DNA of 64,000 bases from Branchiostoma floridae (taxonomy: Eukaryota > Chordata > Leptocardii > Amphioxiformes > Branchiostomatidae), in assembly GCF_000003815.2 (NCBI RefSeq), contig NC_049991.1, positions 11,752,917 through 11,816,916 of the forward strand, in the 5' to 3' direction. Positions 15,701-64,000 of the stretch are shown piece after piece. The notes beneath the pieces are model-generated. The model did no database searches, was not told the DNA's origin, and worked only from the letters and a program-made list of their open reading frames with translations. Position 1 is the stretch's first letter, and each line of letters starts with the position of its first letter. The translations under genes were made by a program, and so were the position numbers.

Positions 15701-18700
15701 TCCCACTCAGACAATACAGGCACATACCTCTGGGTGGAATTGCTGCTCTGTCCTAGTGTGACAATACTGACAGTTGTCCCCATTCTCACACAGAGATGGA
15801 TCCCCCCACTCATCACCATGCTTCACATTAGGACAGGGTGTGGACCTGCCAGCAAAAAAAACAAGAACAACATCAACAGGGCTCGAAATACTGGGTGCAT
15901 GTGCACCCAGGTGCACCCAAAATTGGAGCTGTGCACCCAATTATTTTCTGTGGGTGCACAGGGTCACTTGTATACATCATACTCTTGACATCTAAGTGTT
16001 AGAAAGATAATAAGAATGTTTGTCATGGTACTTGTTTAAGAATTTGGTAGTATGTAACTAGGTTTTGTTATTAGGTATTTCTGACATTCTACTTAAATTT
16101 AAGTGGTGCACCCAAAAGTTTTTTGGTGCACCCAATTTTTCAAGCTGGGTGCACCAGTGCACCTAATCCCAAAAACGAATTTCGAGACCTGATAAACATC
16201 AACATCAACAACAAATCAATTACCTGAAATGAAAATGATGAAAAGATTGAGGGTACATGTACTTGAGTCTCCTTTAGGCCATATTGATCTGATTATGTGG
16301 ACAACATCCATGTACATCAATTTGTGGCCGTATCAACATGAAAGGTTTTTGACCATACAAAGTAGCTGCAAAATGAGCAAATACATGCCATAAATTGCAA
16401 CAAAAAAATCTAAAAATAACTACTAATGTCGTAGAATGCCAAACTCAGTCCCAAAGTAAAAAAGAGGTGAAAGAATAAAATGAAGGATCTATTGTTTGGC
16501 ATACCATATTCTGTGTGTTCAGTCGTATGTTCAACCTTCCTGACCACTTAGATCTCATATTATATTATAATGGAGGCAATTTTTTTTACCAAATTTTTTT
16601 TTAATCGCCACTCGCACCAGATTTCGGGCTCCCAGAGGATGTCATTCATATAATCAAATGAACATGGCCTTAGACAAAACAAGGTATCTTTCTACAATTG
16701 AATGTCATTGGTTACAAATGTTGTACTGAGCTTGCTGAAGTATAGAAGGTTCAGATGCACTGTTCTCGGTGGATCTTACCTATACTTAAACTTGCGAGGA
16801 CTTCTCCTGCGATCTCTGGAATTGTGGTACTGTGGGCAGGCATACCCCTGTCGACAGAGCCTGGGCGGTCGTTTGCATGATTCTGTCTTGTAATTTGCTA
16901 AAACAAAGTTGGTATCTGGCAAAAAGATTGGTTTAGAATCAGTAAACATATCATGGCAATAATCAAAATACTAGTTTTACTGTTATAGAATAAGTTTAGA
17001 CATTGCTACCAAACAATTTTGCTTTCGCTTCTTTGTAGTCAAACCTTGCTACTTGCCAGGGAACTGCAGGTTTAGTACATCAAGGACAAGGGTGCTAATA
17101 AACTTGAGTCTTGACAAGACTTGTTACTTGTCTTGTTCATATCATCTATGAGTTGAAAAGTTAAAGGTCACAATGAATTCAAAGGTTGGCTTTTATTTTT
17201 CCTTGTCAGGATGACTGAAGAGTGAAGACATATATTTTCTAGCTTTCCAGAAACCTGATAGCCTGGTATCCAGTCGTATTGTAGCTCCCGAGTCTCTTCT
17301 ATCCTCTCCACAACAGAAGAGACTTGGGAGCTATAATACTGCTGGATACCAGGCTAGAAACCTTACACAGGGTTCAAAATTACAACAACAACAAAAAGTA
17401 TCCGAAAATGTTTGTACGTTGTACTCACCATTCCACTTTGGGTCTTCATTAACTATCATATTCTTTTCTTGTTTCTCCGGCAGGGAGAGCCCATTCGTGT
17501 CGGAGGGATTATTCCCCGGTGTCTGCTGCTGAGCCTGCAGCTCGCGGATATCGTAGACCGCAGGCCGGAGGTCGTGCGGGCCGTGTGCAAAAGCACAGTG
17601 GGGCCCGTTTTTCACACAGTAGCCTCTACTATCTGTCTCATGTACGCAGGTACTGGTTTTGTAGTAGCGTAGGTGATATCTTCGTTCTGTGTCCCCGGCA
17701 GTACGGTGTAAATAGGGGCAACTGCAAATGGATTACAAGATAAAGGTCAGAAACACGATACAACTTTCACTCCCAACAGCGTGGAAACAAAATACCACCT
17801 TTGGAACAAGGATAACCATGGGTTATAGATCAGGTAAGATATTGTATAAAAGGGGGATCTTTCTCAAAGAAGCCACATAAATATAATCTCAGGGTGTGAC
17901 TGGCATGGCACATAGATTATTAGATATATCATACACATGATAACAACGAAAGTACAACTAAATCAAATAACTAGTGGCCCTTCCACTAATAAGGTGATAA
18001 GGTGCAATAAACCCTCAACAGATTGTGTAACAGAGACAACATGGAGACATAGTACATGGGGTTACGGGTAGCCTGACAAAATCATGCTACTAGTAGCCAA
18101 CCCAACAGTTACAAGGATATATCATAAGAGTGGACACTACAATAGCCTGATTAAATCTCGCTTATAGCAGCCCGCCCAACATCCGCCGCCCCCCCTGCGG
18201 GGAGGGCCAGTTACAGCCCTGGACAGCAATGTTTGTGTTACACAGACTAGACACTACAAGAGGTGCATACATTTGAACAAAGCTTTGCTACATGTATATA
18301 TTCTTTCAATTACACAAAGTATGGCCAACAAAAAAGCTTCCTACATGTCTAGCTAGACTTGTGTAGCTATAGCAAACATGTATGCCATCCCTATAAACCA
18401 TTCCTTCCACAGTTGAATGCAAACATGAATCAACTGTTTCAGACATTTCAATTAATGCCATATTTCAATCACAGGCATAATTTGTGCAGATTCACGAAAA
18501 CTTATCAAAGTGTACCGAACAACCTGCTGGTTATAATAATGACATTTGCCAAAAAATGGCTCTGTACACATTCATCACTGATTAATCTAATAAATTAATG
18601 TATTGCTATGAACATTACTTGATTTATCTAGCAGTTGAACCAGCCATTACTATCCAGAGGAAGGCCACATTAAAAACCTTTAATTAATACCCACCGATTT

Positions 18701-37100: not shown

Positions 37101-40100
37101 ACTGAGCAACACACTCCGGCAGTCCATTTTATTCTGCTAAAACTACTAGTACATCAAATAACCTGACTCATTGAGATTACACAATGAAGCTATACATAAT
37201 CACATGTAAAGCTGCTTGGACAATACACATAAAACAGTACTATATGCAGAATTGAATAGGTATAAAACAATGTTTAACAATACATCATTGCTACAATGGA
37301 ATTAGCGACATTAGTACCTTCCACGAGCCCCATGCCAAGTTCCCCGGGCACAAATCTGCCATCCTGTTGGACACCCACATACATCCTGGACTTGATCGTC
37401 TCTATGTGTTCAGCATGGGTGGCATCTGTGCCTGAAATACAAGAAGACAAAGAGCACTGTCAGCATGCAGGTGTGTACTAGTACTATAAATTCATTCACT
37501 TTGAAGGCGGTTTCATTTCATGATAGGAGGGGGAAAGGAGATTTGTGTTTTTGAATTTGTGATTGTAATTATTCTGAAGTACAGGGGAGACATATTTCAT
37601 GTGTCATGAATTCACAGTAGACCTCAGAAACAAAACCAGTGTAAAAGTTAGAATGCAAGAAAAGCAGAAAAGGAAATACTAACAGAGGATGATTTTCTAA
37701 GTACAATGTATAAACTATCCACTAGTACAGCAAGTGGACTCTCTCCGTGGTTGAGAGAATAAGGCCAGGGTTGCTTACCGATCCCATGTTTATCCATCAA
37801 GGCAATCAGATCAGCCTCAGTCAGCAAGGGAGGGGGGCTGGTCTGTCCCTGGAGCATCTGTGGAGGTGTGGGATGGAAATACATGTATGTCAATCTTGAA
37901 TAAAACATAAGATTTTTACAACTACTTTACATCAAAACTCCACCCAGCTGCTCATACTGAGAGAAAAGAAAACAAGATTTTTACAGAAACTTGACACTTT
38001 GGAACAAAACTTCACCCAAGCTGCTCATATCAAGAGTACATCTCACCTCAATTGCTGAAGGCTGGAAGGTTTCTCCCTGGTTAAACACTGGGATTACCTG
38101 TGCAACAGAAACATAAATCATCATTTGTACTTGTGATAGTAAAAGACAAATTGAATGTAAAAAAGATTCCCTGTGCTTACAGAATATGACTATTTGAAGG
38201 AACACTGTGCACTGAGCCTTAACAGATAGTGAAAATATGTTAGAAAATGTTTAAAATCTATTCACCTTTGCATTCCACTTGTCATAGGGATAAACATCAA
38301 GGTAGTTTCTGGCAATGATCATCAGGCCTTGTGCAGTGAACTATGAAAGAACAAGGACAGAGGCTTAAATGGACATAGAATGCACAAACCTACTATCAAC
38401 CAATAACTGTGCGCCATGAGTGAATAAAGTTGAACTAATACCATTGACCATATTCCATTCAGGAACAATATCATAAGTATACAATGCATAAGTTATCTAA
38501 GCAACTTGATAGATCTTATAAAACCTATCCAGTTACTTGATCAATTTGTGTATTGTATATAATTACCTGGGTGTCTACCATTTATCAACATAAAATACTG
38601 GAAGTGCATTGTGAACCGACCTTCTCTCCATTGATGTCTATCTCTACTGTTGTCTCTTGTCCCTGTGCATCTTGAGACAGACAGGCCAGAAAGTGCCGAA
38701 CTATGAACTCGTACAGTCTCTTCTCGTTACCCTGAAAGGGAATGGATGATCATTGTCCTTAAACTGGAAGATAACTTCTTCAAACAGAAAATTCATTCAT
38801 ATTGCAGACCATTTTTTCAAGAAACAAACTATGATTTACATTAGTTTTGTTTTTGTAATTAACAGATACCCACATCTTCACAACTGATGAACAATCATTG
38901 AGATATACCTGTAGATTATCAGTATATTTTGTCGGATGAATGGGAGGATGGGCATTATCAGTCTTGTTTCCATTGCGTGGGTTGGGTCCCCTCTGCAGCA
39001 CCCCTGCAGCAAACCCTCCCCAGTCTGGGTCCACTGTCTGCAGCTGCACCAGACCCTGCAGGTCTGTGTCCTTGGAGAACTTGTTGGTCTCAGTACGGGG
39101 GTAGCTGATGAAACTGTGGGAAAGACACTTATGTCCAGTTATTTTTGTATGGTTAGTGCACATTACATGTAATATTACATATGATAAATAACATATACAA
39201 GGTGTTGAAGGGGGCCATATGAACTGTTGAATAGCCAGTGAGTAGTGTTGGAAAATATTTTCTATGTATCAACACTGTTACATGTATTTGAAAACCATTG
39301 TTCCAACCTGGACTAGACGCTTGATAACTGAACAGCCTATTTGGTTTTCGCATTTGAATAAAAGTTCAAACAGTCAAAATTAGCAGCCATGTTTCTGTTG
39401 CCTCCCATCTAAACATTCATATGCAGGATTGCAAATCTTGATAAGAGAAAGAAAACCAACCCCTGGTTGTACAACTTCTCTGCTATCTTCATGGTTTCCT
39501 TGGCGTTGATTCTCAGCTTCCGAGATGCCAACTTCTCAAGTTCCACAGTCTCTAAAGGCTGTGGTCTCCACTTGCTCTTCGGACGACTGTTAACACTGAT
39601 CACTCGGGCAATCGGGTTTTCCATCACAATCTGGTACAGAACAAGACATGCCGTATGGTTGAACAGACGGTTACGCTTCCAGTTGAAGTCCACCCTGCCG
39701 TCCTCTGTCTCGTGGGAGACCTTCAATTTGTGGAACATTTCTGGGATGAAGTTCTGTATTGCCTTGTACCGCTCCACAACAAAACCTAGCGTGGGGAACT
39801 GACAGCTGCCATAGCTAATGACCTGATCACTGAGGACATTGGGAAAGATCTTCTGCAGCCTGAGCGTCTGGAATCGTGTGAAGGCGGCACCGATTCTAAG
39901 GTCCAGCTCCGATCGCACGTTCACAGCATCCGATGACCGATAGTCTGGTTGTACAAGGTTGCAACAGGCGGATATTATTGACTGAGGTGTGAAGTCAGAA
40001 AAGCGAGCACGGTAGATTCTGATGTTCGGTTTGACTGCCTTACAAACATCGATCACCTCAGTCCCGATGTTCTCTCCCTCCCGATCACAGTCCGTCCATA

Positions 40101-40752
40101 TCACCAGCACCTGACACTGCCTAGCCTCTCGTTCCAGCGTCCGCTTGATGTCCTTAAACTGATCAGGGCAGTGTTTCTCCACACCTGCATCAAACAAGGC
40201 CACAGGCTGACAGCTGTGCCATTTTTGGTAGCTGCCCTTGAAGTCCAGTTCTAGGAGGTGACCTGACACGGAGGTCATGGACATGGAGCTCTGCTTGTTC
40301 AGAATGTTGAACTCAAACTCGTAGATCTTGTTGAACTTGGAGAAGCCTTCTCGTCTGCGGTACCTGTAACAGTGATTAAAAAAAGACATTCCCACCATGA
40401 ATAAAAATTGACTAATAACAAGATCAATACAGTTCAAATACAGTAATATTGGCATACTCGCAGGACGATCCTGTCAATAACAGCAATTCCGCATTGCTAA
40501 CTAGTTGATCATGCTAATCGCTACTTCTTTAAAAGTTAACCCACAATGCCAGAAGTTTAAAAGAGTTTTATTTATTATTTAATATTAACGCTATGTTATA
40601 CATATATAAAGTCGTTAAATGCAGGGATTCAGGGGATAAATAGCAAACTTAAAACAAGAGCCTTACCTGCCATTAGACAGTACGTCTGCTATCGCCTTCG
40701 CTGCGTCGTTTTTCTCGGCGACATTCAGAACTTTCTGTGTCCGTCCGGCCAT
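31190..40752 (-). CDS. TOP3A: DNA topoisomerase III alpha
   Basis: Type IA topoisomerase. With BLM and RMI1/2 it dissolves double Holliday junctions in the nucleus, and it separates mitochondrial DNA. Twenty-one coding exons (minus): 40752-40667, 40363-39461, 39113-38909, 38731-38621, 38340-38266, 38097-38047, 37857-37779, 37431-37318, 37080-36982, 36799-36741, 36610-36547, 36277-36190, 35710-35611, 35228-35155, 34862-34768, 34445-34139, 33959-33877, 33339-33045, 32528-32395, 31851-31699, 31227-31190. They join in phase to 1070 residues (human 1001). Exon 2 encodes the TOPRIM acidic motif (TDCDREGEN). The catalytic tyrosine is Y334 in ISYPRTE (codon 39103-39101). A Cys4 zinc motif spans exons 12-13. 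Residues about 735-837 are RGG-rich. Two GRF-type zinc fingers follow (837-885 and 950-995), then a second RGG stretch and a terminal CCHC knuckle ([14 protein letters not shown]) as in human TOP3A. The exon 20 acceptor could be three bases further in (31848). Confidence 0.96.
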
Positions 40753-41320: not shown

Positions 41321-42279
41321 ATGGCTGGAAGGTTACTGACTTCACAACTATATATCATCACAGAGAACAGTGGTATTAATACATTACTTCGGAGGTAAGT
41401 TACTAGTATTTGAAACAGTATTTTGTTCATACCCTCCCATGCGATGTCCTTCCGGGGATTCTGTCCTTGCCATGCGGTGATGTAACTTAAGTTATAACGT
41501 TACATGTAGGTATATATCATCACCATTGGCTATTTCTAAAGCAGTCACGCTCATAAAGTGTTACTTTGATATGACAGAATCTCACTTTTGACACTATTGT
41601 CAGGATCATTATGTTAATTACGATTATTGACAGGATTATTTTATTGATTTTCTCACAATTTAACCATTAACAATATTGATGCTGTTATCTAAGTGTCAAA
41701 AGATCATGGCCCAATATTTTTTCTATATTGCTATCAGGTAAATTCAGGTCTCCAATTTATACCAATTCATGGACATCTAGTAAGTTTGAAATGATTCCAA
41801 GAAGTTAACATTTAAGGAGTATAGATTACAATTTGAAAATCAATTCTTCATCTGAAATAATGAACATTCTTTCTTTTTTCAGGCTCCTGCGCACGAAGCT
41901 GCTACCACAGTACCAGACCCTCTCCACTGCTGCAGCAAGACATGCCAGGAAAACAGAGGACCCCCCAGGGGAGGAGGATACAGGACCCCTGAAGTTCACC
42001 ACCAGTAAGGGTGCTCAGTGGAAGGTGGCGCAAACTATGAACCTGAACAAAAACCGTCCAATCAGAAAAATCATCCCTTTTTCCCTTACCTTCACAGCTA
42101 TCCTGCTGTACTTCTGTGTATTCCGCAAGGAGTCGTGGTTGGATGAGGAACTGGACAAAAACTTGTATGCCAGGATGCCAGGGTTATTACCGCCAACAGA
42201 TGAAAATGAGGGTACTGACAGTGTTGCTGTTTCAGGACAAGATGTTGCTACAACTACTAATGTTACACCTTCTACATAG
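41321..42279 (+). CDS. UQCC4: Mitochondrial complex III assembly factor UQCC4 (CCSMST1 / C16orf91)
   Basis: Small inner-membrane protein needed for assembly of the cytochrome bc1 complex in vertebrates. Two coding exons, 41321-41394 and 41883-42279, join AG+G to 156 residues. The N terminus is a mitochondrial-type leader rich in Leu, Arg and Ser. It is followed by an acidic linker, the family block KFTTSKGAQWKVAQTM, a basic stretch and one membrane helix (about residues 92-108, PFSLTFTAILLYFCVF), then RKESWLDEELD, which matches the REESEADQWL end of the human protein. It is longer than the human form (about 132 residues) at both ends. The start has a good context (GCTATGG). An ATTAAA at 42777-42782 is a candidate poly(A) signal. 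The assignment rests on remembered similarity of the block before the helix. Confidence 0.82.
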
Positions 42280-44411: not shown

Positions 44412-45150
<739 letters not shown>

Positions 45151-50000: not shown

Positions 50001-53000
50001 GCAGTATTCTACTCATATTGGGAAGCCTTTCTATACTAAACATTGTAAATTCAGAACATCTGCACAGTTTGTATTAGCCAAACAATAAATTGATAACATT
50101 ACCTCTTGTGCTGTGTCGTGCCTCGCCAGACCCAGCCAGTGCCCAACCCAATCAGCTACTACCTGCACCAGACACCAGAGAACATGCACAAGTTTGAGAC
50201 TCTGTCCAACCACTTTGTGGAGTTGGTGGCACCTTGGTTCATCTTCCTAACTCGTCCCTTCCGTTTCACCTGTGGGTTTCTCCAGATTCTGTTCCAGGTA
50301 CATAGACTCTGACCACAGTTTTCTGTTTTGTGCATTTGTTGTTTGATGATTTGAAGCAATGACAAAAAAGTGTCCTTTACCCTGCTGACATTCCTTGGCC
50401 ATACTGTGGCAGCTTTATTTTTTTGTTTATTATCTAGCTGGTTGCATGTTACATCAATTAAGGTTGGATATCCAAGAAATAAGATAAGAAAGCACAACAT
50501 AAGACTTACTCAAGCAACTGGACAGATTTTGAAAATGGTTAGACATTTCAGGTAACATGCATTGGCATAATACCGGTAGTAAGACTTATACCGGTAGATT
50601 AAAAATACTGGAACTTAAAGAGATCTACACATGCAACAATAGTTATTTCTGAGCTGTGCACACTTCAGACATCTAGGTGTCCAATACACCATTTACAAAG
50701 CATCAATAACAATGCATTCGAAGACAAAGTTTTCAGTATACTTTTTTTTAAATTTCGGGGTAGGCAGCTCGTCGTGGGACGAACACACTGTCACATTCAT
50801 TGCCAAATTTATATAGATCACAATTACACATGCTCACGGCACAAGACGAACATGATTCAACAACAATCTTGAATTTCTGTTGGTGACCTACAACTCATGT
50901 AAAAGTGTGAAGAACCGTTGCATAATAGCCCGGATCTACGACTGAATGGGCAAAATTGAACGTACGCAGCCATTTTCCCGCCATTTTTATATCTACGCTA
51001 GCAGTGAAGTGTTAGGTCATAGCGGTTGTGACGGACAGAAGTTAAATGAAAATTCTTGACAGTATACGTCCGTTTTCTCATGACATATTGTATGCTCATG
51101 CAGGTTTATGTTTTATGCATTTACTGACAGAAAAGGAAGGAACATCAGAGGATGTATAAATGTACATAGCGGCAGCTAATTGTGCCGTGTTTCTTCCTAC
51201 CGGTATTTTGTACCCCCTCCCAACCAAGTGCCCGTTCGCCGTGTAATTCCGCAGCGTGTTACAATTACAATATTACGCTTTTAGCAGGACAAGAGTGGCA
51301 GAAAAGTTACACAGAAGAAGTGGCAAGGGTAACCTATAACAGCAACATGTAACTGGAGAAAATGATGCGTTGACAATTTGTCAAATCAGTATGGCTAGAG
51401 AAATCGTCGTAAACGTACCGGTATTATGATAATAGATGTTACATTGTGGCTTCCACTCTCTTTCATCGATCACTGGCAAAAGGTACTGCATGCTACTTGA
51501 AACATCTGACCATTTCCAATATCTGACCAGTTTCTTGAGTAAGTGTTACCTTGTGTAAGTATATGTTTTTTTATTGTTTTTTATTATCTGTGTTATTGAC
51601 CTCTGTTATTCTTTATTCCCAGGTTATCCTGATCATCAGTGGGAACCTGAGTTTCCTGAACTGGCTGACCATCCTGCCCAGTATCTGTAGTTTTGATGAT
51701 GCCCACCTGGCCTGCCTGTTCCCCAGCTGGAGAGGGGGCACCAAGTGGCAGGTGGCACAGATCCAACAGGAGGAGAGGAGTGGGAGGGCACCTCCTCCTT
51801 CATGGGGTGAGAGGACAGTGTTTACGTGTTTCTTGTGTATTAACTGTTTGCTTTTTTTAATTTACGATTGAAACATACCATAGGTTGTATGCAATGGACA
51901 GAACGTTGACCAAACATCCAGCAGAAACAGTGATGAATTCCACTCCTACTACAAGACAACAACACCTGTACATGCCTGATAACACATTGCCATGCTAGTC
52001 AAGGGTTAAAAGGTTATTGTTGATGATTGACTAAGCCACTGATCATTGGTAAATATTAACAATTTGCCAGTCAACATGACCACCCAGAGCTCATTCAGGG
52101 ATGGTATCAGTTTAAAGTATATTGAAGTTAACAATTTGGGATTACAAGTTCTACACCATTTCTTTCAATATGTCGGATTTGACCTTCACTTCTATTCCCA
52201 GGACAGCTGGTCCGCCGTGTGGTGCACGTATCCCTGGCAGGCCTCATCATTTACCTGAGCCTTCCCGTGGTACAAAACCTGCTGTCCCGACGACAAGCCA
52301 TGAACACTTCATTTGACCCCCTCCGATTGGTCAACACATATGGTGCCTTCGGAAGGTAGGTGGTGGCTTCTAAGAATAGACAGAATCATATAGATGACTT
52401 GAAGTTGCAGCTCTTTTTGATTGCTTTGTCCCAATATCTTTTAAAACCTCATTTCTTAAACTCCCTAAGACTATATGTTAAAAACTATGTTCCATGTTAT
52501 GTGTCTTTGCTTACATTTCCAGTGTCACTAAGGAGAGGACCGAGGTGATATTTCAAGGGACCTATGCAATGAACCCAACAGACCCCAGTGCAGTATGGGA
52601 AGAGTATGAGTTTAAGTGCAAGCCAGGAAACGTGACGCGAAGACCGTGCCTGATCTCACCCTACCACTACAGGCTGGACTGGCTCATGTGGTTTGCCGCT
52701 TTTCAGGTTGGACACTTTTTCAGTCGGACAACTGTTGAAGGTTTTGAAAGAAGCACAAGAGGAGTAAAGCAATTTGTTTGGATAAGATCTAAGTTGGGAA
52801 GACTACTGGTATTAGTTGCAGCTGATCAAGGCATATTCTGTCCAGGCAAGGGGTGCAAAAATTGCTCAGATGGTGATAGAAGCTTAAGCATAAAACTAGG
52901 CACAACTGTGTCATATCAGAAACAATTTAACAGATTTTCTGGTCCTGACAAACTGTCCTTTAGATACCAGTACCTGTTTCCAGTCTGAGTCGGCAGTCTG

Positions 53001-54049
53001 TCATTGCTCGTTCATTCTCGCCATTATCAGTTCCCGCCGCAGTCCATTCCTGTGCAATCTGTTCCAACCGCAATCCTGTCGCAATACATCCCTGCCACAA
53101 TCTGTCCCTGCCGCAGTTGGTCCCTGTTTCAATCCATCCCACTGCTATCTGCTTTCACAGTAAATTTGATATGTTATAAGTAATATTCATATGTCATAGA
53201 TGCCATTTTGCTTTAGAAGATACAGCAGGTAAATTTTGGGGGTGTACCCACTGCTTTATAGTATGATCACCAAAGGGTTTAGGGTAAGTTTATAACAGTT
53301 AACCATCAAGGAAGTCATGTCTTTGCACAAAGTTGACCGGATTTTTTTTTTTACCATTTTTCCATACAGAATTACAACTATAACAACTGGCTGGTTCACC
53401 TGGCAGCCAAGCTCCTGGTTAACGACCCTGGTGCAGAGTCATTGATAGCACACAACCCATTCCATGGGAAGCAGCCTCCAAGGTTGGTGTTGATTCAACT
53501 ATGTTTTGTTCAGGTTTTATCCCACAAGAAGTATGTAATTATGCAGGCTTATCTGTTTGTGTAATACTGTGTTGCTTACCACAGAAGTTAGCAGTTAAAA
53601 TTCCATATACATCTTGTTGTGGATTCATGTTTTATGAGTTATGTAAACAAGTTTTGGACATCACTTTTATGTCATTGACAAGAGAAGAAGGTTTTGAAAA
53701 TTCTGAAAAAGTTCCAGTCCAATAATGCCAAAGGAAAATATTGATCTACCAACCTAATGAAATTAATTTTGGATGTATTTAGATTGTTGCTGTATATGTG
53801 TATACAAGTATACATGTATGTGTATGTATAGTCAGGATTACCCTTTTGACCAGTCTCACCCCACTTTCCAGTTTTATCCGAGCTGAACACTACAAGTATA
53901 CCTACACGAAGATCGGCAGTGCCGCAGCAAAGGAGGGGAAATGGTGGAAGCGGCGGAGAATCGGAGAGTACCTCCCCGCCGTCTCACTGGGCTCACTGAA
54001 CCAGTACATCAAGCAGCATGGCTGGAACATGCCTGCGATCAAACAGTGA
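47095..54049 (+). CDS. LMF1: Lipase maturation factor 1
   Basis: Multi-pass ER membrane protein required for folding and dimer assembly of lipoprotein, hepatic and endothelial lipases. Twelve exons: 47095-47326, 47732-47924, 48489-48608, 49089-49099, 49347-49495, 49805-49870, 50130-50297, 51623-51806, 52202-52355, 52523-52706, 53370-53482, 53872-54049. They join in phase to 583 residues (human LMF1 about 567). The N-terminal 55 residues are polar and poorly conserved. Family blocks are then clear: TGTYWLTRIV, VAFLVALHQNKQL, YSFGWESQLLETGFLAIF, FRIMLGAGLIKIRGD, CWRDLTCMNYHYQTQPVPNP, SGNLSFLNWLT, NTYGAFGSVTKERTEVIFQG, SPYHYRLDWLMWFAAFQ and a basic EGKWWKRRRIGEY near the end. Several hydrophobic segments fit the multi-pass topology. 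The match to LMF1 is better than to LMF2. Exon 4 is an 11-nt microexon. Intron 7 contains an 889-bp transposon copy and intron 10 a minisatellite. Confidence 0.95.
48041..48103. repeat. Foldback hairpin in LMF1 intron 2
   Basis: The arms 48041-48071 (GCACCCTGTC through GTTGGAAAA) and 48073-48103 (TTTTCCAAC through GACAGGGTGC) are imperfect reverse complements with almost no loop. A small foldback element; non-coding. Confidence 0.7.
50553..51441 (+). mobile_element. TIR DNA element, copy A (about 889 bp), in LMF1 intron 7
   Basis: The left end TAACATGCATTGGCATAATACCGG and the right end GTATTATGATAATAGATGTTA are inverted repeats of about 23 bases. A TA lies at each edge, consistent with a TA target duplication. 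ACCGGTA palindromes recur near both ends. No open frame of transposase length was seen, so the copy is non-autonomous. A related copy in opposite orientation is at 54347-54995. Confidence 0.75.
53005..53145. repeat. Minisatellite with a 16-19 bp unit in LMF1 intron 10
   Basis: Variants of CTGTCCCTGCCGCAAT recur about seven times in tandem (for example CTGTTCCAACCGCAAT, CATCCCTGCCACAAT, CTGTCCCTGCCGCAG). Non-coding and bounded by AT-rich intron sequence. Confidence 0.75.
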
Positions 54050-54346
54050 ACATTAGAGATACACATGTGTCATCATATGGGAGCAGGTAGCAATGTGAGC
54101 TGTATAAAAGTACTGTGAATGCCTTTTTCTCCTGCTTAGCCCATATATATATATATATCTGGGATGCACATAGAACATGCCTCTATGTGGGTCCAGTATC
54201 TTTATGGGTTTAGGGCATTTCTTCAGCAAAGCACATCAATTGTGGAGGTAAATCTGCTGCAGCAGCACAAAATAGGTCAGGTTTTACTGATCTGATTAAT
54301 TAACCAGCTTAGGGGGGTTCAATATTTAAAAAAAAAAAACTAGTTA

Positions 54347-54995
54347 ACATCCATTGGCATAATACCGGTCGGTTTACTGCAATTTCTCAAGCAATGCTAA
54401 TTTGGCAAATGATCAACGCATCATTTTCTCCAGTTACATGTTGCTGTTACAGCTTACCTTTGCCACTTCTTCTGTGTAAATTATTTTGTCTCTCTGGTCC
54501 TGCTAAAAACATAATATCGTAATTGGAACACACCGCGGAATTGCACGGAGAACGGGCGCGTGGTTGGAAGGGGGTGCACTATACCGGCCGAACGAAACAC
54601 GGCACAATTAACTGCCGCTATGTACCTTTATACATCCTCTGTTGCACTTTTACACGAGTTGTAGGTCACCAAAAGAAATTCAAGATTGCTGTAGAATCAT
54701 GCTCGTCTTGTGCCGTGAGCACATGTGATTATTATCTACAAATCTGGCGATGAACGTGACAGTGTGTTTGTCCCACGACGAGCTCGCCTGCCCCGAAAAT
54801 GACCTGAAAACTTTTGGCCTTGTTGTCTTCGAATGCATTGTTATCGATGCTTTGTAAATTATGTATTGGACACCTAGATGTCTGAAGTGTGCATACCTCA
54901 GAAATAACTATTGTTGCATGTGTAGATCTCTTTAAGTTCCACTATTTTTAATCGACCGGTATAAGGCTTATGACCGGTATTATGCCAATGCATGT
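54347..54995 (-). mobile_element. TIR DNA element, copy B (649 bp), inverted relative to copy A
   Basis: The ends ACATCCATTGGCATAATACC and GGTATTATGCCAATGCATGT are inverted repeats flanked by TA on both sides (part of TTAA here). The right part is the reverse complement of the left part of copy A, including CTATTGTTGCATGTGTAGAT, and the left part matches the right part of copy A. It lies about 300 bp after the LMF1 stop codon and may be inside the 3' UTR. Confidence 0.75.
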
Positions 54996-55576
54996 TAAGT
55001 CTGTGGTGATTTAATTACACTGTATTACAAAGGGAAAATGGACTGTTCATATGGTGGTATTATGTTTGTGATAGAGCTGTTGTCACATACTGTATGGTAA
55101 TGTAAACACCATTGGTTTTGAGTTTGTGGTGGTCATCACAAAAACTGTAAACATAAAACCACAATGAACATTTTAAGTATAGGATGGTGCAATACTTAAA
55201 GATGATCAGACACACATTCAAGTCTTTAGCTGTGCCCACTTGTAGACAGAGGTAAAAAAAAATGTGAGAATGTAACTTTTTGATTAGTAGAACTACACAC
55301 ATATTATCATGAGAAAGATAAATTATAGCTTTCTTATTGTGAAATTTTCTTAGCATGTCATACAGCCAGATATTGCAAAAGATTGTCAGTCATATCTTAC
55401 TTTTGTACACAAATATCTAGTACCTATTTGTTTGTTTAACAAATGGTTCATTTTTCTTCTGATATACTGTTTATGTTGTTCAGTCATGTACTAGCTTGTT
55501 TTTCTTCCTCTACACTTACTAGGTTGGAATCATTCTGAATTTGGTCAGGTGTAAACTTGGAGCTGATATCTGTGCC

Positions 55577-55997
55577 TAGGGCTGGTTACTGGTACACCAC
55601 AAAACTGATTTTTCTCATTGGAGCGGTCCAGAAAAAATTCGGTGGACCGGATGTTGGACCGATTGGAAAATAAACTTATTATATGATCAGGCATTCACAC
55701 GTTTTCAGGGTTATCGGTCGAGGCAAATAACAAGAGCAAAGCAGGGTAGACTCTGTAGTAATATTTACCAACTTACAATCAATTGTACAGAGCTAGTTAG
55801 CCTTGTAGGATTTTTAAAATGCCAGTGAGAGTCAAATACTACACAATACAGATTTCCCTGTAGCAAAATGGACCATTGTCTTGAGTATCGTCCATTCACA
55901 AGTTTTCACAAAATGAATCAGGTCCGGACCTGGACTTGATCCTCTGGACCTGAACCGGACGTGGACCTGAATTTTCTTTACCGGTACCCACCCCTAG
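55577..55997. mobile_element. hAT-like MITE with 8-bp target duplication
   Basis: The termini TAGGGCTGGTTACTGGTAC and ACCGGTACCCACCCCTAG are inverted. The 8-mer TCTGTGCC stands on both sides (55569-55576 and 55998-56005), as expected for hAT insertions. The interior has a GGTCCGGACCTGGACTTGATCC block shared with the other copies in reverse order. No coding capacity. Confidence 0.8.
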
Positions 55998-56184
55998 TCT
56001 GTGCCTGTAAACTTCAGGTGTAACCAGATACTATGTCAGTTTTACCATCCATGCAGTGACGAAGGATATAATAGTGAACTTTGACGAAACTGATATTTCT
56101 CAATCTATGTCATATCTCTTCTCCCTGCTACCAAATGCCATAACCAATACAAATTCAGTGCCAAACAGCTAAAGAAGGATGCTG

Positions 56185-56535
56185 AATAAGACCTTCAGAA
56201 GATCAATAGCCTACCGTGGCCCCTATGTCTGGAACAACCTACCACCAGACACACGTACGGCTCCAAATCTGACCAGCTTTAAGAGACTCTTGAAGTAAAA
56301 GTTATTGACCAAAACGAACGGACACGGACTATGAACACTGAGCCATCTGCACCACTATATGTTTTGTACAATGTATGTGTAGTGATATAGGTTGATGAAT
56401 CTAATAGTACTCAATATAAATCTGTATTATATTTTATATGACCCTGACCTCCCTCATGACCTCAATGAAAAGCGGCCTGCTGGCCGATTTGAGCTTCTCA
56501 TGAATAAACAAAGGTTCAAATCAAAAAAAAAAAAA
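56185..56535 (+). mobile_element. 3' end of a 5'-truncated LINE retrotransposon
   Basis: Positions 56185-56298 encode 38 codons ending in a stop, with the block RSIAYRGPYVWNNLPPDTR then NLTSFKRLLK. This is the usual extreme C terminus of a LINE reverse-transcriptase ORF. A short 3' UTR follows with AATAAA near 56503 and a run of 13 A at 56523-56535. The 5' limit of the copy is uncertain and may lie near 56090. I infer a dead insertion. Confidence 0.75.
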
Positions 56536-57012
56536 TTAACATAACCTTTGCATGTACTCAGCTGGATAGAACTTTTAAAGGAAGGGAATGACAGGTTTTA
56601 TCTTGCTGTAATTTGAACAGGAAGGCTGTGACAGACGTTTATCAACTCTGGATGAAGGTCTACAAGTATAACGATGTTTTAGATGTCTACCAGTCATGTT
56701 GATCAGAAGTTTTTCTAAGGCTAAAGAATGAAAATTTCCTAGTGGCCATAAGTTCCCTGGTCCAATACCACTCTCTCTGTTATGCATTGTTTTTATGAAG
56801 TTGTAAACTGGGTAGAAACACTGGAATACAATACTGTATATGGTGCACAGTAGATAAGATGGACGTGTAGCTTTATTCATTCAAAAGAAAAATAGAAAGG
56901 TGTAACTGTATGACTGTTTAGTTAGAGTCTGCAAAATGGAATCTTGAAACTTTATTGAAGTCTTTATTTGAGACAAATGTATATATTTATGTATGTATGT
57001 ATGGCTGTCAAC

Positions 57013-57440
57013 TAGGGCTGGGTACCGGTACAGAAAATTCAGGTCCGGTTCAGGTCCAGAGGATCAGGTCCAGGTCCGGACCTGAACCTGGACCTGATGC
57101 AGTATGACTCATACCAATCGTCCATTTCACTACAAAGAGATCTATTTGGTGGAGTATAAGACTTACACTAGCGTTTTAAAATCCTTCAACGCTTACTGCA
57201 CCTGTACGATTGGCTGTAAAACGTGGTAGAAATTTACTATAAACTCTATTCTACTTCACTCTTGTTATTTTCTTCCACCTGCAAGCGCCAAAACGTGTGA
57301 ATGCCTGATAAAATAATCTGTTAATTTTCTAATCGGTCCAACATCCGGTCCACCTAATTTTTTCAGGTCCGGTTTTTCTGGACCGGTCCAATAAGAAAAA
57401 CCGGTTTTGTACCGGTACACTGTACCGATACCCAGCCCTA
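57013..57440. mobile_element. hAT-like MITE, best-preserved copy (428 bp)
   Basis: It starts TAGGGCTGGGTACCGGTAC and ends GTACCGATACCCAGCCCTA, a terminal inverted repeat of about 19 bases. The 8-mer CTGTCAAC is present immediately on both sides (57005-57012 and 57441-57448). An 8-bp duplication plus short inverted ends points to the hAT superfamily. Subterminal GGTCC/GGACC repeats are abundant. Non-autonomous. Confidence 0.88.
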
Positions 57441-58199: not shown

Positions 58200-58451
58200 A
58201 TGGACGTCGTCTCTAATACACTGAAGGTGAGCCTCCTACGTTTTTATCCTTGATGAATGTTGTCACTCATATTTTAGAATAGGATATCATGTAACGTAAC
58301 AATGTATTTGGGGGAGGGTAAGCAACAAGAAAGGTAAGTATCAACACTCGATCTTTGGATATCGGGACTTGCTTTTGTGTCAGGTGGACTTATGGTGTCA
58401 CTGAATCCCTGGGCATTTTTTTTGTATTTGCAGATCTTCACCGTTGAGTAA
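58200..58451 (+). promoter_or_regulatory. 5' UTR exon border and short uORF ahead of the RdRP gene
   Basis: A donor (CTGAAG|GTGAGC) at 58226/58227 and an acceptor (TTTGCAG|ATC) ending at 58433 suggest a 5' non-coding exon spliced to the first coding exon. In the spliced RNA an ATG at 58200 would open a 14-codon frame (9 codons before the intron, 5 after) that stops at 58449-58451, 11 bases before the main ATG. Such a uORF would lower translation of the main frame. It depends on the transcript starting upstream of 58200. Confidence 0.4.
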
Positions 58452-58462
58452 AAGCGATCAAA

Positions 58463-61400
58463 ATGAAGCGAGGTGGTCATTATAAACCCCACTGCACCGT
58501 GACAGTCCAGGTCAGCATACAGAGTAGGGACCCGGCGGCCGCGCACTACCGCCTGGAGTCGTACCTGCTGCGGTATGCGGACATCAGCAGGGACCCGCCG
58601 CCTAGAGTCGTCAGCACGCCCGCTGCAGCTCAGTACGAGGACGCGGTGGTCAACCTGGAGTTCACCTTAGAGCCGAGGCACGGGACAACCCCGAAACTGT
58701 TTTTTGCTGACCTGAGGCGGCGATGGTGCGCGGACCCCCCGAACTGGGAAGGAGACAGCCGGCCTTGGCTCACAACAAATCAACGGAACACCTGGTCTGG
58801 GTCTGAGACAGGCATGAGGGCCATACCATTACATGACCTGGAGTGCGCCGGCTTCTCGCTAGGTGCGTTTGTCGGAAGGAGCACGTTCGTCGGCCACTAC
58901 GACACAGACGACTTGGTCCTGGACAAGACGGTGTCGTTCGAACACGACCGCAGGTTGATGACCGTGACCTTCCAGCCTTACGTCGACCTGCCGACCTGTA
59001 GGTTTGAGGTCGGCTACAAGGAACTGGAGAAAACCGTTCTGGTCCACCAAGATGGTGACGTCACCTGCCTGTTCTTCTTTCTCAAATACCCGCTGAAGGT
59101 GGGTGGAAAACACCACATACCTCCAAGAATAAGTTCCAACAGGGCGTAGCCTACATATAGATGACGCAAGTTCTAAAAGTTTCGGAAAACCCCTCTGGTA
59201 ATCTTTCATACTGTGACTTAGTACAGCCTATCCCCTTGTTTATCCTGCACAATATGTTGGATGATCCTATAGCTAAGCCGCTTATACTTGTCTATTTCGG
59301 TATGTAAGTGAATGTATTTTCACTTAAAAAGGTGTGCGAAGTAGAATATGAACTAGACTTTTTACTGACAATTTTACTGTGAAGTGCTGCCTTTTCCCTT
59401 ATTTATCCTGCACAATATATTGAATGGCGTCCTAAGCCGTTTTTAGTTTTTCTTTAGTCCTGTACGAAGTAGAGCTAGGAGGAACCAGATACAGCAGAAA
59501 GACAGCACTGCAGAAAGGACATGACAAAGATAAGCTTCAGTGCCATGTACTAGAATATAGGATTGATTCTAAGCCCGGCAATCTTAGGTTCTTGTTTCTG
59601 CAAGTAAGGCTGTTTATTATTGCATTTTCTCGTTTCTAAGGTATATGAAGTGGAAGAAGTGCTCGTGATTTTCCCCAGACTCAGTGACAGCCCTGAAGAA
59701 AAGGTGACCCGAAAGATCAGCTTTCACGGCTGCTCAAAGAGTACATTGGGAAACTCCTCCTGCCTGAAGCTCGTTCTCCCCGCCCGACAGAACCCCCAGG
59801 ACGTCCTGAGCCGACTGTGTGGGAGGGGCAGCTTTACCGCGCACTACGTCTCCGTCACGTCACTCCCCGCACCTGAGACGGCAGGTAAGGAGGCGGACAT
59901 GCTGACCGGCGTGGCGTTCAAGACCAGCTACGCCTTCCGCGCCCTCCTCTCGCGCGGCTTCACCGCCATGGACCAGGTGACGGACGCCTTCATCCGCCAG
60001 GTGAGACGTCTGGACAGGGACCGAGGGGAGGATGTGGCCGCCGATATTCTGTACCGTCTGACTCACGTGCTGGAGAGAGACAGGTAGGCTTTCATGGTTC
60101 GCTCTGACGTTCATTATACACTATATACAGTCGCTTCTCTGTGGATGGCAGAAGCGAACTACTACCCGGATGGTACCCAGGCTAGCTAGTGTTTAGTTTT
60201 ACTTGAAGAACGTCGACAGTTCATTCGCACCCCTAAGGACTTTGTCGCGTCCAAAGACCCTTTGTGTTTGAGCAAAAGTTCCCTATCATGTCGCTTACCG
60301 AAGCAGATTTTTTTTTTCAAGTCATGAGTTAGAACCTTTTACCGTTAGGTTTGCCAACATCCAAGCGGTGCTTGACTGCCTCCTGGCCGCCCGAGATGTT
60401 GAGTTGGGCCGACCGGAGACACTCCCGGCTACTCTGCAGGTGGTGGCCAGGGTCATCGTCACGCCGACAAGACTCGTCTTTCTGCAGCCGGAAATCATGT
60501 ACGGAAACAGGTGGGGACAGTGCAAGTCTGCGTCTAAAACACTTTTAGAGTTCCGTGTGCTTGCAGTAGGGTTACCCCTATATGAAGAAGCAGGAATCTG
60601 TAAAGGGAGTAGAGCATGTGTAGCATTGAAGTTTTGTATCATAGTATTTAAGTCTACAGGTACCATTGCTCGACCATGGCACCGCACTAACTGGGTGTTA
60701 TTTGCGACTGTCGCAGAGTTTTGCGGGAATTCGGCACAGATCACTTCCTCCGCGTGGTGTTCCGAGACGAGGACTTCTCCAAACTTCAAGCAACTGGGAC
60801 CGGTAGGGGCAATGGTGATGAGGAGGAGAAGATCTTTGTTCGCGTCAGGAAGGTGTTGAAAAAAGGGATCAAAGTCGGCAACAGGTGGGTTTGACGTATG
60901 GTATATTGGAATTTGATTTACTGTTCTGGTTATACCGTTCTTGTTTCCGCTCTCTTCCGTGCTTTAATACTTGTACTAGTTATAGTCTGACAGTCTGACA
61001 AGATTTGTTTCAATTGGAACTACATGTGTGACGAAATTTTACAACTTGAGCCAAAGATTTAATCAATTGTACATCCCATGATTTAGATTGGTAACAGGGT
61101 CTTTCCTTGGTGCTGAAATGGTGGTCGGCACAACAGTCCCTGTTGCTCTGTTTATTCAAACTGCTTTTTCTTAATCAAGATGTGATGCAGACCCTAAATG
61201 CACTAGGATTTACCCTTTCATTTTGTATAAATGTGTGAATTGTACAAATTAAGTATCTTTGACAAATGACAGGCCACATGATCAATGGGACATGCGGTGG
61301 TCAGACCGTTTGAATTTTTACATCATGACCGGGGCCTCATATTTCCGCCTTGACGCTGTACTTGTAGGTTGTACGAGTTCCTGGCGGCGTCTAACAGCCA

Positions 61401-64000
61401 GCTGCGGGAGCACGGCCTGTGGTTCTTTGCGTCTGACGGCAGGAACAGAGCGGACTCCATCCGGGATTGGATGGGAGACTTCAGCAACAGCAGGTCGGGC
61501 TTGTAATCATTCTCTTATCGCCAGTGTTTAACTGTAGAATTAAAGTTATAGAAGAAGCAGCCATAAATTTTAGGAACAGGTCGATTCCATAGCCTCCATA
61601 GGAGGCTCTCTGGACCGGACCGGCAGTACAAACGACCGAATTCAAAACGAAATGGCCAGCAAAAGTGTATGATGAGAATAAAAAAGACGAAAAGGGCACA
61701 GAGAGCCTGCTATGGAGGCTATCGATTCCAGTCGTTCGTCAGAATCAGCAGTTAAGCCAGGAGGAGAGTTCCACCTCGCCATTTTGTTGGCCGAATTCCG
61801 TATGTTTTGAAGAAACTGACTTTCTCATGATAAGCACATTTATTCAAGTACAGCGTGTTGTTAAGTCTTGAGAGTATACACTGGTTGACATCCACATTAG
61901 AAAGTCTTGGAATAGCTGTAAGATTATTGACACCCTCTGACTTGCCGCAGGTGCCCGGCCACCTACCTGGCCAGGATGGGTCAGTGTTTCTCCACCACGG
62001 AGTCCAGCGTCACAGTCCGGCCGGGACAGGTCAGCAGGATCGCCGACATCGAGGGCGGGCGGGACCCTGACGGCAAGTCCTACTGCTTCTCCGACGGCAT
62101 CGGCAAGATTTCACGGGACCTTGCTAAGGAGGTGTGTAATTCTAGTGTTAGCCCTGTATATGTAGCTAGCTGTATCTATCGGTCCTAGCTCCGTTCGCTC
62201 CTTGGATCGCTTCCCTGCCATCACTAGATTGACTGGAGCTACTTGATGGATTCCAGGCTGAGGAACACGGGATTACTTCAGCAACAACTTGTATCCTTTA
62301 ACAATGTTTAAGATGATGTTCGTGTCTTAGCGTCGACGTAATCTGCATACTTATACTGTGGTATTATCTATTATCTAAATAGCACGTAGAGCTCTAGACA
62401 ATGTACGACTATTTCTTAAACGTTTCTTTCCTCCTTTCCCAATGCAAAGGTGTGCGAGAAGACCCAGCGAAGCCATGAGCCCTCAGCCTTCCAGGTGAGG
62501 TACGCGGGAGTGAAGGGGATGCTGGCGGTAGACCCCACCCTCACCGGTCTGGCCATGCAGTACCGCAAGAGCATGGAGAAATTTTCCTCTGAGCACAACA
62601 ATATTGAGATTTGCTCCGAAAGTCATCCAGGTGCGCTTCCTTCATTTTACGTGATATAGTAATTGAATATTTTTTTATATAATTTAGCTTACCTTCACGA
62701 ATCGGAAACTATTGTTTTTGCTCAGTGTCTTCCTCTTTTGCCGTTCCAAAGAAATACAAATGTAAGGTCAATGACCTTGCCTAGACCACTATCACCATGG
62801 TTACATCGCTACGGTGTTCGATTTCATTAAGTAGCAAGTGGTAGGGCAGAGTTGAAGGGGTTGGAGGGACCTAGCCTTATTTATGAATGTATTTGAAAAA
62901 AGAATATAGAAGAATGAATAAACAGCTTGGACAGTAGTTTACTAGGCTAGAGGATGTGAAGGTAAATATCATGTATTTGCTTGCAAATGTTACCTTTCTA
63001 GTTGAGATATTCTTTCAGTCGTGTATTGTCCATGTCAAGGCTACACCGGGTTTAACTATTTTGTTTTCAGCGCGGTTTTACCTGAACCGACAGATCATCT
63101 CCATCCTGTCGGGACTGGGGATTCCAGACGAGGTTTTCCAGGTCCTTCAAGAAGACCAGCTGCGGAAGTTAGCCAGCATGTTCCTGTTGGAGAATCGGGC
63201 CGTCGACGCGCTGAACCAGCGGGCGCAACTGTCCGGAGTGCCGTACCAAAAGCTGTCCAACTGCGGCGTCTACATGACCAGCGAGCCGTTCTTTAAAGGC
63301 ATGCTACGGAGAGTTTACAAGAGCGGCATCGGTAAGAAGGTTCGCCACGTTGTTCTCGCCCAGTCTTTCACCCACGTTTCCTATGTTTTCTATGATATCT
63401 TACGCGCACTGTAGTTACATGTTTGCCCTACCTGTCATACTTGACATTTTATAACCTGTAGATATGGCCAAAATATGCATTTTGACGGCACCTATCTAAA
63501 TTTATTTGACCATGCACAGGGGACACTCGAAGAAAGGCCAGGATAGAGATCCCACCCGAGTACGGACGGAACATGTTGGGTGTCCTGGACGAGACAGGCA
63601 CACTTGAGTATGGACAAGTCTTTGTCCAGTACACGGAGGATATCACAGACAAGGGTGGCGAGACCAAAGTGTTGACAGGAGATGTCGTTGTATCGCGGAA
63701 TCCGTGTTTCCACCCGGGAGACGTACGGAAACTCAGGGCAGTCGACGTCCCCGCACTGCATCACATGGTTGACGTCATCGTCTTCCCCTCCAAAGGACCG
63801 CGACCGCATCCTAACGAAATGTCGGGAGGAGACCTGGATGGAGACCAGTTCTTCGTCACCTGGCACCCTGACCTGCTATTCCAGCGCCCGAATGCAGACC
63901 CCATGCACTTCAAGGCACCGAAAAAGATAGAGCTGGAGATCGTCACAATCTCCGACTTGCAGAATTTTATCGTTGACTATATCAAGAGCGACATTTTGGG
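58463..64000 (+). CDS. RNA-silencing type RNA-dependent RNA polymerase, 5' portion (cut by window edge)
   Basis: Cellular two-barrel polymerase that copies RNA into double-stranded RNA for small-RNA pathways in plants, fungi and nematodes. Nine exons: 58463-59098, 59641-60083, 60349-60510, 60717-60884, 61368-61493, 61951-62131, 62450-62630, 63071-63331, 63520-64000 (continuing). They join in phase to 879 codons. The start follows an in-frame TGA at 58445-58447. Family motifs appear in order: YCFSDGIGKIS (exon 6), FQVRYAGVKGMLAVDPTL (exon 7), LGVLDETGTLEYGQVFVQ, VVVSRNPCFHPGDVR, then SGGDLDGDQFFV (exon 9). The catalytic DLDGD is residues 824-828 (63831-63845), so all three metal-binding Asp are present. 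The N-terminal 200 residues show no domain I recognise. Exons are GC-rich against AT-rich introns. The C-terminal part lies beyond the window. It is unrelated to viral polymerases in fold and motif order. No frameshift or internal stop was seen, so the gene looks intact as far as it goes. Confidence 0.93.

Follow-up and report, generated by a model that had tools for sequence, protein, structure and literature searches.

An intact RNA-dependent RNA polymerase gene of amphioxus and a predicted gene-conversion tract over its catalytic core

The 64,000-nucleotide window analysed here (C13:11752917-11816916 of the Branchiostoma floridae genome) contains at its right end the greater part of a gene for a cellular RNA-dependent RNA polymerase (RdRP), hereafter gene A. 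We infer, at a probability of roughly 0.78, both an activity and a job for its product, namely that it is a catalytically competent enzyme of the QDE-1/RDR/EGO-1 kind, which would make antisense or double-stranded RNA (dsRNA). Polymerase activity is likely, supported as it is by the intact 10-exon frame, the full match to the profile PF05183, the alignment to relatives of solved structure, and a DLDGD loop retained in 6/6 RdRP loci of the genome (termed A to F). In this family, the aspartates of the DLDGD loop bind the catalytic magnesium ions, and the enzymes copy single-stranded RNA into a complementary strand, yielding dsRNA or short antisense RNA; the aspartates of the gene A enzyme would hold magnesium in the same manner while single-stranded RNA is copied. 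An intact amphioxus RdRP gene is of a kind already published. New here are a probable conversion tract with its active-site constraint, the intact loop at all six loci, and a dispersed element carrying an RdRP fragment.

Gene A and the RdRP family of B. floridae

The model of gene A was rebuilt by hand from the window sequence, with exons joined via GT-AG introns and their phases checked. Within the window the gene spans 58463-64000 on the plus strand and comprises nine exons and eight GT-AG introns of consistent phase, its coding part amounting to 2639 nt, or 879 codons, with 0 stops. A sequence-only reading of this DNA had described nine in-phase, stop-free exons with a DLDGD motif, and the rebuilt model bears this out, such that its observation of an intact RdRP gene is confirmed as real. 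Past position 64000, where that reading had advised following the gene, the frame stays open through exon 9 and exon 10 to give a protein of 1415 amino acids (aa), and the rest of the RdRP domain is present there with no premature stop.

58463-59098 (+): exon 1, with its ATG at 58463; residues 1-212; the model guided by paralog E has the same ATG and ends at 59145
59641-60083 (+): exon 2; the paralog-E-guided model starts at 59679
60349-60510 (+): exon 3; the PF05183 match begins here, at residue 397
60717-60884 (+): exon 4, from the hand model and paralog-guided alignment, as for exons 5 to 8
61368-61493 (+): exon 5
61951-62131 (+): exon 6
62450-62630 (+): exon 7
63071-63331 (+): exon 8
63520-64000 (+): exon 9, first part; the exon runs past the window to 65411
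65595-65792 (+): exon 10, in window-equivalent coordinates outside the window, from the genome sequence 3' of it
63831-63845 (+): DLDGD codons, metal-binding triad; residues 824-828; coordinates hand-counted from the exon table and sequence

When the gene A protein was searched against the whole window with tblastn, the nine exons were each matched at E <= 7e-22, and nothing beyond them fell below E 2.8. Spliced alignment with the paralog E protein gave identical limits for 6/9 exons and the same start for exon 9, the exon 1/2 border being placed at 59145/59679 versus 59098/59641 by hand; since the paralog E protein was itself modelled with gene A as query, this check is not fully independent. 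Two TGA codons listed with the genome profile match were considered as a premature stop and rejected, as both lie outside the coding frame of exon 9. Read by eye, 58200-58451 may include a 5' leader spliced from a donor after 58226 to an acceptor before 58434; this leader would hold a short upstream open reading frame (ORF) ending shortly before the main ATG. Intron 5 contains a small inverted repeat at 61574-61737.

A PF05183 profile search of the genome (513,431,437 bases in 431 contigs) yielded 26 exon-level matches, which group into six loci, while the same search of control genomes gave matches in 0/14.

Locus A, C13, in the window (+): complete model, 1415 aa
Locus D, C13 (-): complete model, 1421 aa; tail to tail with A
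Locus E, C13, about 165 kb beyond A: complete model, 1411-1418 aa according to the option taken at one splice site
Locus B, C1: model still open where the sequence taken for it stops
Locus C, C8: model open for 1741 aa
Locus F, C4: partial model, 457-479 aa

The splice-aligned paralog models are free of frameshifts and stops. The 17-nt second exon that the aligner placed in E is probably an artefact; by hand reasoning, use of the AAG|GT donor type seen in A would bring the protein to about 1411 rather than 1418 aa. The stop codons of A and D lie 1127 bp apart, tail to tail (C13:11818709-11819835), with a (TG)n run of 42 nt between them, and the two transcripts might overlap at their 3' ends.

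Comparison of the 879-residue product with PF05183, a check that had been proposed for it, gave a match at E 2.1e-158 over profile positions 1-494/582 (Pfam search), and the full protein scores 629.8 bits (cut-off 23.8) over positions 1-582/582. Residues 155-284, from exons 1 and 2, match PF25359 (metazoan RdRP PH-like) marginally: the cut-off is 27 bits, and the scores are 28.3 bits (879-aa part) and 27 bits (whole protein, level with the cut-off). DUF7752 (PF24934) occupies residues 1173-1277 of the full protein (E 2.2e-9).

The closest solved relatives are structures of plant RDR2 (PDB 7eu0 and 7roz, and 7w84 and 7w82, which we take to be maize RDR2), to which residues 392-879 align, DLDGD loop included, at E 9.6e-94 to 3.3e-99. 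Gene A differs from RDR2 in being an animal gene, in its marginal match to PF25359, in having DUF7752, and in an extended C-terminal part that closes with an extra exon common to A, D, and E. The counterparts of this exon (residues 1351-1415) in D and E have the identical intron position and phase. It carries a 'TGA' plus hydrophobic pattern, common to all three, which is reminiscent of a KH domain; no KH domain was matched by Pfam up to E 1 in the full protein. Fungal QDE-1 (PDB 5fsw, 2j7n, and 7y7p) is much farther from gene A than RDR2 (E 1.1e-23 to 8.1e-26 in a single-sequence search), and its catalytic region aligns with DYDGD opposite DLDGD. The stronger match to RDR2 only hints that gene A belongs to the alpha RdRP clade. 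In a nine-sequence tree, constructed without other animal RdRPs, 4/6 inner branches stayed open, and both F and QDE-1 sat on very long branches.

That gene A could be a contaminating fungal, protist, or viral sequence was rejected as already contradicted, since the gene sits on a 22.4 Mb contig of chromosome scale, its intron positions are common to the paralogs, and its neighbours carry domains of ordinary eukaryotic genes. No relatives were confirmed in viral or bacterial contigs, where only 6, 2, and 2 short peptide patterns were tried.

Eukaryotic RdRPs have been reported in 98 metazoan species (Pinzon et al. 2019, PMC6396948). The RdRPs of B. lanceolatum described there (BL02069, BL23385, BL09945, and others) are, like those of B. 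floridae, of the cephalochordate eukaryotic type with six candidates. They are transcribed and developmentally regulated, and at least two of the candidates have a full-length domain and a preserved catalytic site. Three of the six candidates have an intact DbDGD site, as compared to DLDGD in six of six B. floridae loci, although loci and predicted proteins were counted differently in the two cases.

A tract common to A and D and the constraint upon it

Comparison of A with D by blastn yields a single long match, which covers window 63529-63934 (406 nt) at 87%, whereas the remaining six matches are of 35-180 nt at 68-86%. The exon 9 alignment was scored in 30-column blocks, which place the region of high identity as follows.

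63543-63863 (+), approximate limits: predicted gene-conversion tract common to A and D; partner C13:11822084-11822486, minus strand

Over the ten blocks 63550-63849, 277/300 columns are identical, one 3-nt indel included, as against 19/30 in the block just upstream, 23/30 in block 63850-63879, which contains the tract end, and 210/360 in the next twelve blocks downstream. The tract ends about 18 bases past the DLDGD codons. Where A and D encode the same residue, 92/107 codons are identical within residues 728-857 versus 186/498 outside. The A-D segment scores 62, a value reached by 0/2000 permutations (permutation maximum 19). The test took in nine pairs, B-C and F being left out, and neither A-E (1093/2000) nor D-E (287/2000) has such a segment; an A-C segment at residues 522-562, reached in 23/2000 shuffles, was not counted, as it is one of nine pairs tested. 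Synonymous distance within the tract is 0.25 for A-D, 1.6 for A-E, and 1.7 for D-E, and a genome-wide DNA search with 63520-64000 finds D and E with identities of 87% and 74%, respectively.

Judged from these patterns, a gene-conversion tract of ~0.3 kb lies over the catalytic core of the neighbours A and D, with abrupt edges within one exon. An extreme purifying selection acting on codons or on the RNA itself, without any conversion, might also be proposed, given that the core is also where A-E and D-E are most conserved and that fourfold-site identity is somewhat raised there. We find this highly improbable, however, since E is strongly diverged at synonymous sites in this very region, the tract edges are abrupt inside one exon, and the shared segment is confined, among the nine pairs tested, to the neighbouring pair A-D. 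The GC content at third codon positions of D is 0.638 in the tract versus 0.517 in residues 840-1340 and 0.558 in exons 1-8; there are hints in the sequences that conversion may have run from A to D. No report of gene conversion in RdRP genes was found in the open-licence literature searched (titles and abstract starts), and the main text of Pinzon et al. (PMC6396948) uses neither 'conversion' nor 'tandem'.

Over the 105 codons of the tract (residues 730-835), A and D differ by 16 synonymous and 6 non-synonymous changes, which corresponds to a ratio of non-synonymous to synonymous rates (dN/dS) of 0.10 (bootstrap 0.03-0.21), computed pairwise such that the value belongs to the pair rather than to each gene. 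Outside the tract, synonymous sites between A and D are saturated and no ratio is given; the separate pair B-C has a dN/dS of 0.158 (0.13-0.19) over 1020 codons. Presumably, the active sites of both A and D have been under purifying selection since the conversion, because one free copy would push the ratio toward one half and its upper bound is low. This bears upon the suggestion that the gene A protein does not act as a polymerase in vivo, being conserved instead to bind RNA or to serve in a structural role. Such a role would agree with the failure to detect a clear RdRP product in B. lanceolatum (PMC6396948), but the catalytic loop is invariant in all six loci and is included in the converted tract of low dN/dS, and we therefore regard it as very unlikely.

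Surroundings of the gene and an element with an RdRP fragment

The sequence-only reading had also pointed to an abundance of inverted repeats around the gene, and these are indeed denser there than across the initial 42 kb, with 13 inverted-repeat pairs at 50-64 kb versus 3 (1-14 kb), 3 (14-28 kb), 2 (28-42 kb), and 9 (42-56 kb, which overlaps 50-64 kb). Most of those near gene A come from repeat copies arranged as two nested pairs, one at 50.5-55.0 kb and the other at 55.6-57.4 kb. A genome search with the element at 50553-51441 gave 1176 candidates, of which the best 40 were scored (self included); each is at least 97% identical, and they lie on many contigs, so we consider the element a dispersed repeat. 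The accompanying guess that nearby foldbacks supply dsRNA to gene A is thus unsupported, and the foldback at 50.5-55 kb was rejected as a gene-specific source on the grounds of this dispersal. No RNA families at gathering score and no tRNAs were found within the window. Its other features are as follows.

50553-54998: inverted pair of dispersed-repeat copies, upstream of gene A and not part of it (inverted-repeat and genome search)
55599-57410: another two repeat copies in inverted arrangement, outside gene A (inverted-repeat search)
17334-17732: UNK-type zinc finger (Pfam)
39412-40473: topoisomerase with Toprim (Pfam)
41809-42276: CCSMST1 family (Pfam)
44773-45150: core histone (Pfam), H3-like by eye
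52482-52985: lipase maturation factor C-terminal domain (Pfam)
2704-2803: 100 N in a row, probably an assembly gap

Seven further short matches to exon 9 DNA (75-95 nt, 77-83% identical) were encountered in the genome, all inside one repeat family. Long stretches of most members of this family agree at 96-99%, while greater divergence is seen in L015, on C18, and in parts of L021, on C5. A genome DNA search places the copies of this long terminal repeat (LTR)-like element at L022:1827-9026 (C13:19.78M) and L023:1927-9072 (C2:33.11M), and also in L015-L021. Among four copies examined over 9.9 kb, two have direct repeats at their ends (1470 nt in one, 1410 nt in the other), the two repeats of a copy being 99.93% alike; the other two are not flanked in this way. 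The RdRP piece has an in-frame protein similarity to A of 54-71% over 31-37 residues. The ORF beside it contains a DEAD-box piece (E 3.7e-5, 24 bits, below the cut-off of 26), whose best solved match is DjVLGB (5e-9), only slightly ahead of many other DEAD-box helicases. In the L022 copy, no gag or pol match was obtained in the 6/9 ORFs (of at least 110 aa) scanned. Since the RdRP piece is roughly equidistant from A, D, and E, the element would appear to have taken it up long ago.

Activity and use of the enzyme

If gene A encodes an active polymerase, several suggestions can be made regarding its use. Amplification of RNA interference (RNAi) is a known role of the RdRP family, and plant RDR2 functions in Pol IV-coupled synthesis of small interfering RNAs (siRNAs). 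Gene A might similarly be an amplifier of the nematode or plant type, with secondary siRNAs made in conditions or cells unsampled so far. Effectors exist in the genome, as a Piwi-domain profile search gave 37 exon-level matches on five contigs, 35 of them above the cut-off. Ticks offer a further parallel (PMC10062562): tick RdRP1 is, like gene A, an animal RdRP from a multi-gene family found alongside several Argonautes, and tick cells contain RdRP1-dependent small RNAs with 5'-monophosphates. In amphioxus, by contrast, none have been found. Twenty-four B. lanceolatum libraries from embryos, larvae, and wild adults, some able to capture 5'-triphosphate RNAs, revealed no siRNA class, and antisense exon-junction reads were very few (1.33 versus 94.2 parts per million sense; PMC6396948). 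Accordingly, steady-state siRNA amplification is disfavoured, and an amplifier of this type seems unlikely to us. The same libraries qualify the sequence-only reading, which held that amphioxus RdRPs had been noted without clear evidence for siRNAs: the puzzle itself is published, yet the genes had been more than merely noted, and the search for antisense 5'-triphosphate small RNAs that it recommended had largely been run in this related species, with a negative outcome (PMC6396948).

Among the Piwi-domain exons, those on C11:20694926-20769946 come in three adjacent sets, and at C149:81260-81826 there are four equal 111-nt matches to one Piwi-domain piece with a spacing of 152 nt, suggesting local duplication.

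For a catalytically competent gene A enzyme, we favour, with less confidence than its activity, a conditional use outside steady-state siRNA amplification, either tied to particular stages or triggered by dsRNA or virus, and production of dsRNA upon challenge is our leading guess as to its job. In Nematostella, RdRP1-3 are among the RNAi genes upregulated by poly(I:C) (PMC8476169). Several points weigh against an active enzyme used in this manner: 1) the induction parallel is drawn from a cnidarian, 2) sequence conservation is not proof of polymerisation, 3) the core is the most conserved region in A-E and D-E too, such that part of the low dN/dS is general, and 4) B. lanceolatum yielded no clear RdRP product, and the authors of that work (Pinzon et al. 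2019, PMC6396948) consider that an active enzyme may not be made at all. As for the tail-to-tail pair, conversion has made the catalytic cores of A and D alike and purifying selection has kept them since. A more elaborate and rather doubtful proposal is that A and D form an enzyme pair whose cores are held in step by conversion and selection for RNA copying of a non-siRNA kind, e.g. dsRNA for innate sensing, with the LTR-like element and its RdRP and DEAD-box helicase fragments being the trace of a past interplay between transposon and enzyme.

Amphioxus RdRPs constitute a known puzzle, as they are retained in a chordate lineage without siRNAs, and published work has left the activity of the proteins open. 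A conversion tract at the active site, together with the strong purifying selection to which the pair has been subject since, is separate evidence that catalysis itself is retained. Furthermore, A and D form a pair in which either gene may compensate for loss of the other.

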